From positions 12,033,181 to 12,097,180 of the forward strand of contig CAIIXF020000010.1 of the NCBI GenBank assembly GCA_903813345.2: a stretch of 64,000 nt of DNA. Direction: 5' to 3'. Of this stretch, positions 21,190-58,727 are shown in pieces (positions within the stretch are counted from its first letter, which is position 1; every line of letters begins with the position of its first letter). Position numbers and translations under genes: made by a program. Under the pieces are notes generated by a model. That model made no database searches and was not told the origin of the DNA. It was given only the letters and a program-made list of their open reading frames with translations. This DNA comes from Owenia fusiformis. Its lineage: Eukaryota > Annelida > Polychaeta > Sabellida > Oweniidae.

Positions 21190-24100
21190 ATGGGTCCACC
21201 AGGTAAATAGTTGTTTTTGTCATACTTACACTGTAATCGCACGATTCGGCTATATTATTGTATAGAGGTATATTTCAGGCACGTTTTGGACCCATATAAA
21301 TGAAGATTTAGCAGAGCTTTTATAGATTTGAAGGCATTTGAAATATTCTATATTTTTCTATTTCTCATGATCTGTGATTGAATTTCGCATGCTCGATTTG
21401 GAGACCTCCTCCGAGGGTCAGCTTCCTGGAGCCAGCTTACATTTAAACACATTTTGAACGTTTAAGATTTCCCATTCAAATGGTTTCCCAAAAGCCTATT
21501 GATTTGGCAAATTCCTAATCAGTCTTCAGATTTCATCTGGCTTACTGATAGGTCTATTCTCTCAAATATCTCATGTCTAGCCCTTACTTAGTTTGCTTAG
21601 AGAGATAGCTTTGCATATGTTGATATTTCCAGTCCTTTATAAGGGTCTTTTGTAAAAATGTAAGAAATCTTGGAAACATTTACCCCACTTCAATCGATAA
21701 CATTCTAAAGTATCGTTTTTCTAACCATATCAGGCTATCTGGAGTCGGTAGACAGTGTAATTGACGAAAAATGTTGAAGAGTTGATAATTTTCAAGATGG
21801 CTTCTCAGGAAGTTGGGTAATGCGCATGCGCTTCCATGCCATGATATTTCCGCTTCCGGTTACACGCATGTGCATTGGCAAGACTTTCTGGTCAGACGAC
21901 ATGGAAAATAACAAATTCCAAATACATTTTTCTTCAATTACACTGTCTCCCGACTCCAGATAGCCCGATATGGTTAGAAAAATGATACTTTAGAATGTTA
22001 TGCATCGATTGAAGTAGGGTAAATGTTCAAGATTTCTTACAGTTTTGTAACAGACCTTAAACATGAGCTGGGAATATCAAGATATGCATAGCCATCTATC
22101 TAAAGATGGCTATGTGCAAATATAGTAATCTAGCCCTACATCACAGTGGGCAGAATTTCCATCATAATATTGATTAAAACTACAACTACAATTGCTAAAT
22201 CTTTTTCTTCAAAATATTGATGTTTTTCAAATGGATAATACTTACTCACTTCGAGAGCGATGTTAGATTTTGAAACTTATGGCTCTCCAACGGAAAAATG
22301 GACAGCTGAATAATAGTGTCCTTTGAAACACGAATTAAGTCGATCCGCGGCCTACTTTTGTTCTCTAAGTATGTCATACATCATTATCATCCTTTCGTGC
22401 AAGTATTGGAGTGCTGAAGTACTTCCTTTTCGATCAAGACTTGTAATTGTTAGTCGAGTGAATGTTTTTTTCTGCTTAATTCCAATATGGCGTTTTCTGC
22501 TCTGACATTTTTGTAAATCTCTGGAGGTTGTCCGAATCTAACTCATTCTCAAAATTCATTTCGTTCGGTGCGTATCTCGCTCCTAATAAACCGCCATATT
22601 GGAAATGGGTCGAAAAACATTCACTCGATGAACAATTAACAAGTCTTGATTGAAAAAGAAGTATCCAATACTTGCACGGATTGATTATACTGATGTAAGA
22701 CACAGTTAGAGACCAAGGGTAAGCCGCAGAAATCTTTATTCATGTTTTAAAGGTCACTATTATTCAGCTGTCCAAGTGCGCCGTGGGAAAGCTATTATAT
22801 CAAAATCCACATAGCTTTCGCAGGAAATAAGATAATACACATCTTTATCATGCTTTTTGAGATTTGGCATTCGTACAAGTCCGAGATAACACCATAAAGG
22901 ATCTAGAAAAACATATCTTGCTACTATGGCAAGATATTACTGCGAATGTAAGCACAGAAAAATTTGTAAAATGATCCGCGTTCCGCCTTATGACCGATCA
23001 CATAGCTTGTCCCAAAGTCTTAAGTTCTTTCTATTGATTTCAAATTTGTTTACAGGATTTTCTCCAAGAGGCGGTGGCCGAGGTGGGTTTAGAGGAGGTA
23101 GAGGAGGAGGCGGCGGCGGCAGAGGCGGGGGAAGAGGTGGTTTTGGAGGTACAGTATATTTTATCTGTATTGAGGACTAACTTAACAATTGCTTTTATTG
23201 TGATTTAGACTGTTAAATAACACCTGGATGAACAATTTAATAAGTGAGAAATTTTACACACATATAAGAGGTGTCAAGAAATATATTTCTGTAATTTTAT
23301 GTTTCACTGCAAAATGTACCATTCCTTTCTGTGAATCCTCTATAGGTTTTGGATTACCAAAGATTCACTTATGACATCATATAAACTAGATGATTTTTTT
23401 GAAATGTGCAACCTGTAATAACTAATGCAGAATGCATATTTGTCCACTGTGTTATGGAAAATTCCAGCATTTGCAAAACATATTTTTTTAATTATTTTTT
23501 TTATTTTAAACATCTTTGATTATGTTCCCATTCCAATGTTTTTGAAGTTTTCAATGTGACATCAAAGAAAATGACTACAATTTTATCCTTTTGAGTTGAT
23601 ATAAAAGTAATCATAGATATTTTTTAGGAGGCAGAGGAGGTTTCTCCCCAGGAGGCCGAGGGGGTGGCCGTGGAGGTGCTCGTGGTCGAGGTGGCGGCCG
23701 TGGAGGTATGTTCATGTTTTCAAATTAACTGAGTTGCGTCTAAAGCCTCAGTCCTATTTGCTCTACATAGGACGTACATTGTTCATAGCTTCACAAAATT
23801 GAAATGAAATGGTACGATTGCCAGAGATCAAATGTGACTGGAATTGTTTATTTACTTTTCACTAAAAATTTTTTTTATGCCTGAGTAATGAATTGTCTCA
23901 TTGATCACACTAAGTTATAACAATTGGTATTTTACAAAAATGGATAATGAGTAGAATTAATTGCAAGACTTATTATTGTTTGTGACTATCTACAAGCTGC
24001 CATAACACATTTGCATGTATATAATCTTTGAATTGCTTTGTAGGAGGCCGTGGTGGTATGAGAGGTGGCAGGAAAGTTGTAGTAGAACCACATAGACATA

Positions 24101-27100
24101 ATGGTAGGTTTCTAAATCATTTTTGCCAATTTTAGCTTTGATTTGAATAAGAAGAATATTATATAAGGTATTACAATATACCTATTTTAACACCATGCAT
24201 AGTATGAACACATTGATATCAATTTGTACTTGTATGTAAAGTGTACTTCGTTGTTTTTTTACATTCATTTTGTAGTCTAAGACACGGGTACTAACCAGAC
24301 ATCAACATACCGCAAGTATTTGAGGATGCACATTGAGCTAAACATACAACTGAGCTCATCAATACAAATAGCTCTGTGCCTAAAGTCTCAATCACATTTG
24401 CTATATGGCAATCATTCATTCATATAGAAAATCTACAGCGTGCTCCTTATTCCTATATTTATCCTGCATATTTCTCTCAATTTTGAGATGCTACAGGCGC
24501 CGTACAGTTACTGTAGATCAAATGTGACAGGCATTAGTATGGTGCTGCCGAGCAAGCTGACCTGTGTAGAAATCAGTTTTGCTGAGCTACCTAGCTGGCT
24601 TCACACATAGTCTTGCTGTTGAAAATCAGTGAAGTTAACCAGATCAGTGCTAAGTTCATACGTGTACTTTGATTTCAGGTGTATTTGTTGTCCGTGGCAA
24701 AGAAGATGCTATTGCTACACTAAACTTGGTGCCTGGAGAGACTGTATATGGGGAGAAGAAAATTGTTGTTGAGGTATATACATTTGTGGAAGTCTAGGAG
24801 TCCTGTATTATGTCATTTTGATAGGCGCCATAAATCTTGTCATCAAAATTCCAGGAAAACCACTTTCCTGTTCAATTTTGAATTGGTGAATTTTTAAAAA
24901 TTACTTCTGCTTTTTTTTTGATAAAAAAGTGATATATATCACTGTGTGTCTTGCTATTTAACTTCCATGGTGTTACAAGAAAATTCTGCATGTTGCAATG
25001 TGACCAGTATTGCCTTTAGCCAGTTCTTGACAATTGAATTAACTTTAAAAAATGGTGGATGTTTCAGGAAGGAGAGAAGAAAATTGAGTACCGCGCTTGG
25101 AATCCATTCAGGTCTAAACTTTGTGCAGCTATCATTAGTGGTGTAGATGGAATTCATATGGGCCCTGGTAAGAAGGTGCTTTACCTTGGTGCTGCCTCTG
25201 GAACTACAGTCTCCCATGTAGCAGATATTGTTGGCCCAGTAAGTTATCATTTATAGCATTCTTCATAATTAAGGTTGGGCATAGATGGGAAAATCCCATT
25301 ACATACAGTAAAATGTTAAATGTTTGGAACTACATTGAATTTAAAAAATAAGCAATCAAAAGACCATATTGAAACAGTATATGTAAATTTAGAATCATTT
25401 ATACATGTCCTAACTTTTGTATATTTTAGTTTGTTTTGTAGTTTAGCTATCATATCTGTGGCCTCTTATATTTTGATGCTTCTCTGCCATGTTATTTTCG
25501 GAAAAATTAACATGGCTGAAATTCCCTAAATTACAAAAGGCCACAGCTTTACTGCACATTATACATAACTATCTGAATTTCTATTTTTGATATACTGTTG
25601 CAATATAGTCATTTAATTGCTTTTTTTTAAAATTCGAAGTAGTTCCAAACATTTAAAATTTTACTGTAGTAGGTGAAAAACATGCAATTAATTGTATGAC
25701 ACATATAGCCATTTTGGAATTAGACGTCCACTTTTGCTTCAAAGGTGATGAAATTTAAATGTTTTTTTAAAAGTTGAACTCCCTAAAAACAACAGATTTT
25801 GTGAAAACAACTGGTGAAAATCACCCATTGCCTGCTGCTGATGAAACCTCGGGGTATATTAAACTTGAATAATTAACTGAATTCTTCTGTTGTCTTTTAG
25901 GAGGGTTGTGTATATGCAGTAGAATTCTCACATAGGAGTGGACGAGATCTGATCAATGTCGCCAAGAAACGAACCAATATCATTCCCATCATTGAAGATG
26001 CCAGACATCCACATAAGTACAGAATGTTAGTTGGTAAGTAAACAGGGATTTATTACAAGAATATTATAGCTTTGGAAATTCCTAAATTCTTTATTGTAAC
26101 TATAGACATTGTGATAGTAAAAGAACTATAGATTCAAACAAATGAAATGAAGTAAAGGTATATCAACACATCTGAAAAATTGTTCAAAATAAATACGGTT
26201 CAATCAAACTTTTGGATATATTCATGATAAAGATTCTGCAACGGGAAAATAAAATGTTCTTTGCTACTCGAGGTATGTTGGACCATATATTAACAAGTCC
26301 GATTATAAAATGTTTTTTTGCTACTAGGTATGGTTGACTGTATATTTGCTGATGTAGCCCAACCAGATCAAGCCCGTATTGTAGCCATAAATGCACACAA
26401 CTTCCTTAAAAATGAAGGCCACATAGTCATATCTATAAAGGTAAGGGACAGCCATCAGTGGTCTTGACTCTGGTTGATAAAAATTTAATACATCACTGAG
26501 AAATACAACAGAAATGTTTTAAACCCCGAAATAAATTTAAGAAAACCTTCCCTCCTTTTACCCAGTACTGGACAATATTGTCAACATTGAAATTCACAAA
26601 AATGGAAAATATAATAGCATGTGAAAACTATCAGGAGTACAGTACATGCAGTATTTGTACAATCTTGAAAGCTAAATTTTGATTTGATATTACATGTACT
26701 TGTATCAGTAGTGGTGACATATTGTTATAGTCTCGAACTTTTTTTGATGGTGTTCGATGGTTGGCATTTGGAGTTGAGTGTCCGTAACAAATGACAGGTG
26801 GTGATGCCTTGTATTTGTCTGTTTTCATATTGATCAAAGTTGGTTTAACCCTTCAGTGATATATATTAGTATAGAAATATAATACTTTGTATGTTATAAA
26901 AATGCTCCAAAATTTTCTATAGATTCTTTCCTCTAGGTAGTCTGAAACATAGCAAATCTCCATTTTGTGAAAAATGTATTTTCTGCAAACTGTATTGAAT
27001 TGCTTAATGAGGCTTCATGAATGATCTTATCTCTTGTAGGCAAATTGTATTGACTCAACAGCAGAGGCTGCAGTAGTGTTTGCAGGGGAGGTAGATAAAC

Positions 27101-58515: not shown

Positions 58516-58727
58516 GGCAGTTGAACAAACCGCGCCATGCTCCGGCTGCCTACCCACCAGTAGTGACAGCCGATGCAATAGTAGCCATGGCAACGCACAA
58601 GCAGCAAGTTGACATGGATGCCATCAGTATGCAAAGCCGCATTCCGACGACATTCAGAGATCCCAGTGCTGCTCCTTTGAGAAAACTGAGTACAGATTTG
58701 ATAAAGACTTACAAACATATTAACGAG
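58516..58727 (+). CDS. DYRK1: DYRK1 (minibrain) kinase, conserved N-terminal exon
   Basis: A 212-nt exon from tgcttacag to gag/gtaagt. It starts in phase 1 and ends in phase 0, so residues 46-116 of the joined frame come from here. The end, [17 protein letters not shown] then IKTYKHINE, is the hallmark segment just before the nuclear-localisation and DYRK-homology regions of DYRK1A/1B kinases, dual-specificity kinases that autophosphorylate on tyrosine and act on serine/threonine targets in the nucleus and cytoplasm. The vertebrate protein continues VYYAKKKRR, which would begin the next exon; it is not found before 64000. The part before ([20 protein letters not shown]) is variable. Invertebrates usually have a single DYRK1 gene, so I avoid the 1A/1B distinction. 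Confidence 0.92.

Follow-up and report, generated by a model that had tools for sequence, protein, structure and literature searches.

Does the neighbourhood of the fibrillarin gene (FBL) and a DYRK1 kinase gene in the annelid Owenia fusiformis reflect the same ancestral arrangement as FBL and DYRK1B in mammals? The question is raised by a stretch of 64,000 nucleotides of contig CAIIXF020000010.1 (assembly GCA_903813345.2, positions 12,033,181 to 12,097,180 of the forward strand; hereafter the window), in which an earlier note had described fibrillarin as followed on the same strand by DYRK1. Our analysis bears out the identities, the order, and the strand of the two genes by tblastn, PDB comparisons, and splice sites, with the restriction that DYRK1 is represented by a single exon. 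The window thus holds an intact FBL gene and, head-to-tail with it, the 5' portion of DYRK1, and this pair was most likely inherited from the bilaterian ancestor and kept in mammals as FBL-DYRK1B.

The coding part of FBL extends over 21190..28002 on the plus strand and was delimited by tblastn, splice sites, Pfam, and PDB matches. It comprises 10 exons: exons 1 to 3 at 21190-21202, 23056-23136, and 23628-23705; exons 4 to 6 at 24044-24103, 24679-24773, and 25068-25238; and exons 7 to 10 at 25901-26033, 26328-26440, 27040-27185, and 27981-28002. The gene is complete: its ATG is at 21190, and its stop codon ends at 28002. The tblastn queries were the human FBL and DYRK1A proteins (the latter up to and including its kinase domain), and the FBL query produced same-strand, collinear matches from 23049 to 27186, with weak chance matches elsewhere; the first exon with its ATG and the short last exon with its stop were added by reading the sequence. 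On the same reading, exon 2 has alternative ends at 23139 or 23148 that also preserve the frame, and the borders of exons 3 and 4 are ambiguous in the Gly/Arg-rich part. Enumerating the splice choices gave 1896 models; the six listed ones carry all seven required motifs and vary from one another in exons 3 and 4, which are Gly/Arg-rich. One model, joined through AG/GT splice sites, encodes an open protein of 303 amino acids whose top-ranking chain in PDB is 7mq8_SC, a fibrillarin (E=1.4e-136), and the open reading frame containing exon 6 matches the Pfam family Fibrillarin (PF01269, E=3.6e-25). The protein combines the Gly/Arg-rich N-terminus (exons 2-4) with the methyltransferase domain that mark it as a fibrillarin. 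Its 10 coding exons compare with nine in most of the mammalian FIB cluster (82% of the genes; PMC7608942). Introns 1 and 6 contain inverted repeats (21597-22103 and 25304-25668) with arms of 76-85 nucleotides that are 79-92% complementary and resemble small palindromic mobile elements.

The DYRK1 exon lies downstream at 58516..58727, also on the plus strand, and encodes the conserved region that precedes the kinase domain, as identified by tblastn, PDB comparison, and splice sites. It is bordered by an acceptor ending in TTACAG and a GTAAGT donor, and its frame is intact. The end of the exon aligns with residues 69-110 of human DYRK1A at 71% identity over 42 residues (tblastn, E=2e-13), the last of which comes from the first intron codon, and at E up to 0.01 a single PDB chain matches it, DYRK1A (9krj_A, of 763 residues; E=1.9e-12). 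Across 37 residues of the exon, 27 agree with human DYRK1A and 24 with human DYRK1B, a difference that does not discriminate between the two because the gene presumably predates their split. Pfam gave no match for the open reading frame of the exon, which was to be expected given that the exon lies outside the kinase domain; it is this conserved N-terminal stretch that assigns the exon to DYRK1. No further convincing DYRK1 exon, kinase exons included, was found up to position 64000 with the DYRK1A query; the other matches, none with E better than 0.37, were short, aligned poorly, or contained stops. The kinase domain would fall beyond 64000, outside the window. Among pattern-matched stretches in two sequence collections, none of 39 (viral_contigs) and none of 431 (genome_contigs) was confirmed as a relative of the exon.

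Between the FBL stop and the DYRK1 exon lie about 30.5 kb with interspersed repeats (28003..58515), which were covered by a Pfam scan and a repeat search. The Pfam scan took six-frame translations of 28002-57901 with stops written as X (12 translations, E up to 0.1) and found no family in any of the 12. As a positive control, the identical method applied to a one-frame translation of 15003-29999 recovered fibrillarin (PF01269, E=2.6e-28), suggesting that a good-sized exon of a known domain in the gap would probably have been detected; domain-less genes and very short exons would escape the scan, and 57902-58515 lay outside it. The earlier note had counted one unassigned exon between the two genes but gave it no location. 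The gap holds several weak candidate exons.

A codon-score scan of the gap was of limited help in choosing among such candidates. It was trained on only two window genes and considered segments of 90-250 bases, of which the best 25 were listed. Within this list, the DYRK1 exon reached a total of 12.2 compared with at most 10.5 for the gap segments, a difference to be read with the exon being longer than most of them; in mean score per codon it reached 0.17, compared with up to 0.29 in several gap segments, so that the scan separates exons poorly. The top gap segment by total score, 57751-57875, overlaps stretches paired with copies at 53.8-53.9 kb and is therefore taken to be a repeat. Some of the gap repeats have copies elsewhere in the window. 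One interspersed repeat is present in three copies (9119-9742, 53754-54389 in inverted orientation, and 57310-57959), with paired stretches 75-95% alike, and its last copy sits just 5' of the DYRK1 exon. A second, inverted repeat family occurs at 37387-37885 and 53326-54536 (88-92% alike), both within the gap.

Splice phase points to one particular segment as a candidate 5' coding exon of DYRK1, namely, 40528..40654 on the plus strand, or a first exon if translation starts at the in-frame ATG at 40519. Here an open frame runs up to a GTAAGT donor and leaves one base over, which is the phase that the DYRK1 exon requires. However, 4 of the 10 GTAAGT sites on the plus strand of the gap are preceded by an open frame of at least 40 codons, and since one among these four is phase-compatible, the fit is suggestive only. 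The segment has a modest codon score (3.5 over 43 codons) and no meaningful match in PDB, where one match at E=1.2 was taken as chance. The segment may, on this weak evidence, be a 5' exon of DYRK1 itself. If so, the gene would start at or before 40.5 kb, reducing its distance from FBL to about 12.5 kb or less.

How does this arrangement compare with that of mammals? We take human DYRK1B to be encoded, like FBL, on the reverse strand, and the intergenic gap between the two human genes to measure a few hundred bases. A copy-number table for human 19q13.2 gives the order CLC, DYRK1B, FBL, FCGBP, and PSMC4 (PMC4243240), and a table of a cattle region gives LEUTX, DYRK1B, FBL, PSMC4, and FCGBP (PMC5070821). 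FBL is placed in reverse orientation on human chromosome 19 and in forward orientation on zebrafish chromosome 16, with PSMC4 and scn1b near it in both species (PMC1971062). Given that human FBL is reversed and DYRK1B is listed before it, DYRK1B lies 3' of FBL, provided that the list follows map order. Thus, in human and cattle (19q13.2 and BTA18) FBL has a DYRK1 gene as a neighbour, as it does in the window, and in human this gene is on the 3' side of FBL. The earlier note had described human FBL and DYRK1B as immediate neighbours transcribed in the same direction; of this, published tables support the order of the two genes and the reverse orientation of FBL.

The window also departs from the mammalian arrangement in three ways. 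First, its gap amounts to about 30 kb, or to 12.5 kb should the candidate exon belong to DYRK1. Second, its DYRK1 gene is presumably the single gene that existed before duplication, unlike mammalian DYRK1B. Third, upstream of FBL a large open exon on the plus strand, 12238-13917, belongs to a chondroitin sulfate synthase gene, its closest PDB chain being chondroitin sulfate synthase 3 (E=7.6e-126). We know of no chondroitin sulfate synthase gene next to FBL in vertebrates.

The simplest explanation of the shared order is common descent, in which an FBL-DYRK1 pair would already have been present in the common bilaterian ancestor. A match to the human neighbour pair by chance would be expected about once in 1000 cases, by a rough estimate of our own from two adjacencies and some 20,000 genes. 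The link would then have persisted mainly through the slow breakage of short neighbourhoods rather than through any mutual need of FBL and DYRK1; such slow decay appears the likeliest cause of its persistence, with regulatory linkage as a minor alternative. That gene order can be conserved locally between animal phyla is well established, and the ancestral animal microsyntenic blocks described by PMC8851819 likewise consist of local order common to distant animals, although those blocks need at least three orthologues, whereas FBL-DYRK1 comprises two genes only. The pair is thus probably a case of conserved gene order of an ordinary kind, another ancient microsyntenic pair. In the literature examined (mostly open papers, in partial text), we found no description of an FBL-DYRK1 pair in an invertebrate.

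Common descent would also make the linkage older than the split between DYRK1A and DYRK1B, as the earlier note had proposed; this is the simplest reading of the shared order, and it draws on mammals and one other genome. We presume that no FBL gene stands beside vertebrate DYRK1A, and the FBL neighbour would accordingly have been lost at that copy after the vertebrate duplication. Since Ciona has one DYRK1 gene and most vertebrates have both DYRK1A and DYRK1B (PMC9953678), the copy that remained beside FBL after the duplications is 1B. The further proposal that 1B kept the ancestral location over-reads this pattern: a genome duplication hands the location to both copies, one of which then loses its FBL neighbour, and the proposal therefore does not follow. 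We take the FIB-like genes of the published fibrillarin microsynteny study to be FBLL1. As the vertebrate-duplication partner of FBL, FBLL1 was rejected; most FIB-like genes consist of one or two exons, and their context is a separate one, limited to eutherian mammals (PMC7608942).

Several observations weigh against inheritance from the bilaterian ancestor. The comparison spans mammals and the window genome, with no third lineage; DYRK1 is represented in the window by one exon only; and in Drosophila and Caenorhabditis elegans, FBL and DYRK1 are, we assume, on different chromosomes. At its default block size, the method of the fibrillarin microsynteny study would probably miss a two-gene pair. 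As far as the available portions of that study go, between-species FIB synteny in animals was found only within vertebrates, in a sample comprising 62 genomes of invertebrates and 195 of vertebrates, and FBL of fishes and reptiles falls into a separate community from that of mammals (PMC7608942). A syntenic relationship is given there for 14 of 78 invertebrate FIBs, conserved groups of Drosophila among them, and the invertebrate genomes are described as very fragmented; its main text contains no occurrence of DYRK. With fragmented genomes and a block-based method, the study neither supports nor refutes the FBL-DYRK1 pair. Finally, just 70 ancestral blocks are reported to have passed to the vertebrate ancestor, a number below that given by shuffled genomes (PMC8851819), so that in vertebrates such links do not as a rule survive; a pair that did survive is slightly more notable for it.

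Among the other explanations, the one that survives best, though we consider it rather unlikely, is that regulation holds the pair together: the 30-kb gap or the FBL introns would contain control elements of DYRK1, and FBL would be a bystander within a genomic regulatory block. Conserved gene pairs under such constraint have been described (PMC8851819). A long gap with no recognised gene would likewise leave room for regulatory DNA. Nevertheless, if the human gap is only a few hundred bases, little gap sequence common to both lineages could remain. It is less probable still that FBL and DYRK1 became neighbours independently in two lineages. The narrow comparison of mammals with the window genome would leave room for such a coincidence, as would the fact that synteny of FIB between vertebrates and invertebrates is not reported in the portions of PMC7608942 examined; yet strand and order match, no recognised gene intervenes, and the chance estimated above is small.

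At the bottom of the scale are two readings that we regard as very improbable. In the first, the pair would have been linked head-to-tail since the bilaterian ancestor through joint control in nucleolar and ribosomal DNA (rDNA) regulation. Fibrillarin is a nucleolar rRNA (ribosomal RNA) methyltransferase. DYRK1B is reported to regulate the silencing of rDNA transcription after nucleolar DNA damage, in work where FBL served as a nucleolar marker (PMC13039405, 2026), and one might speculate on a functional tie between DYRK1B and FBL through a nucleolar role. In the second, the adjacency would be an artefact, either of a false join in the 30-kb gap or of a lone copy of the DYRK1 exon without a gene: the repeats at 53.3-54.5 and 57.3-58.0 kb do resemble copies at 9.1-9.7 and 37.4-37.9 kb, kinase exons were not found in the window, and the mean codon score of the exon (0.17) is below that of several gap segments among the best 25 (up to 0.29), but the splice sites and the frame of the exon are intact, its total score is higher (12.2 against 10.5 or less for the gap segments in the same list, most of which are shorter), and the window contains no N letters and no obvious composition break (G+C of 31-38% in 2-kb steps, AT-rich throughout) and thus shows no sign of an assembly join.

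Elsewhere in the window, a tandem array at 2691-5759 consists of about 41 copies of a 75-base unit and contains the palindrome GTACCATATGGTAC. As the unit length is a multiple of three, the array has long open frames of up to 425 codons on the plus strand and 192 on the minus strand. Neither an Rfam match at the gathering score nor a tRNA was found in the window; one sub-threshold mir-51-like match within 21190-28800 (E=0.33) was taken as chance.

Should the pair prove widespread, the linkage of FBL and DYRK1 would predate the genome duplications of vertebrates. The pair would then provide a positional marker for the ancestor gene of DYRK1A and DYRK1B, with the FBL neighbour of the DYRK1A copy lost, and a site at which to seek ancient regulatory sequence of a kinase gene that is dosage-sensitive. 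If joint control, improbable as it is, were nonetheless true, the linkage would mark an old and unrecognised regulatory unit for ribosome production.

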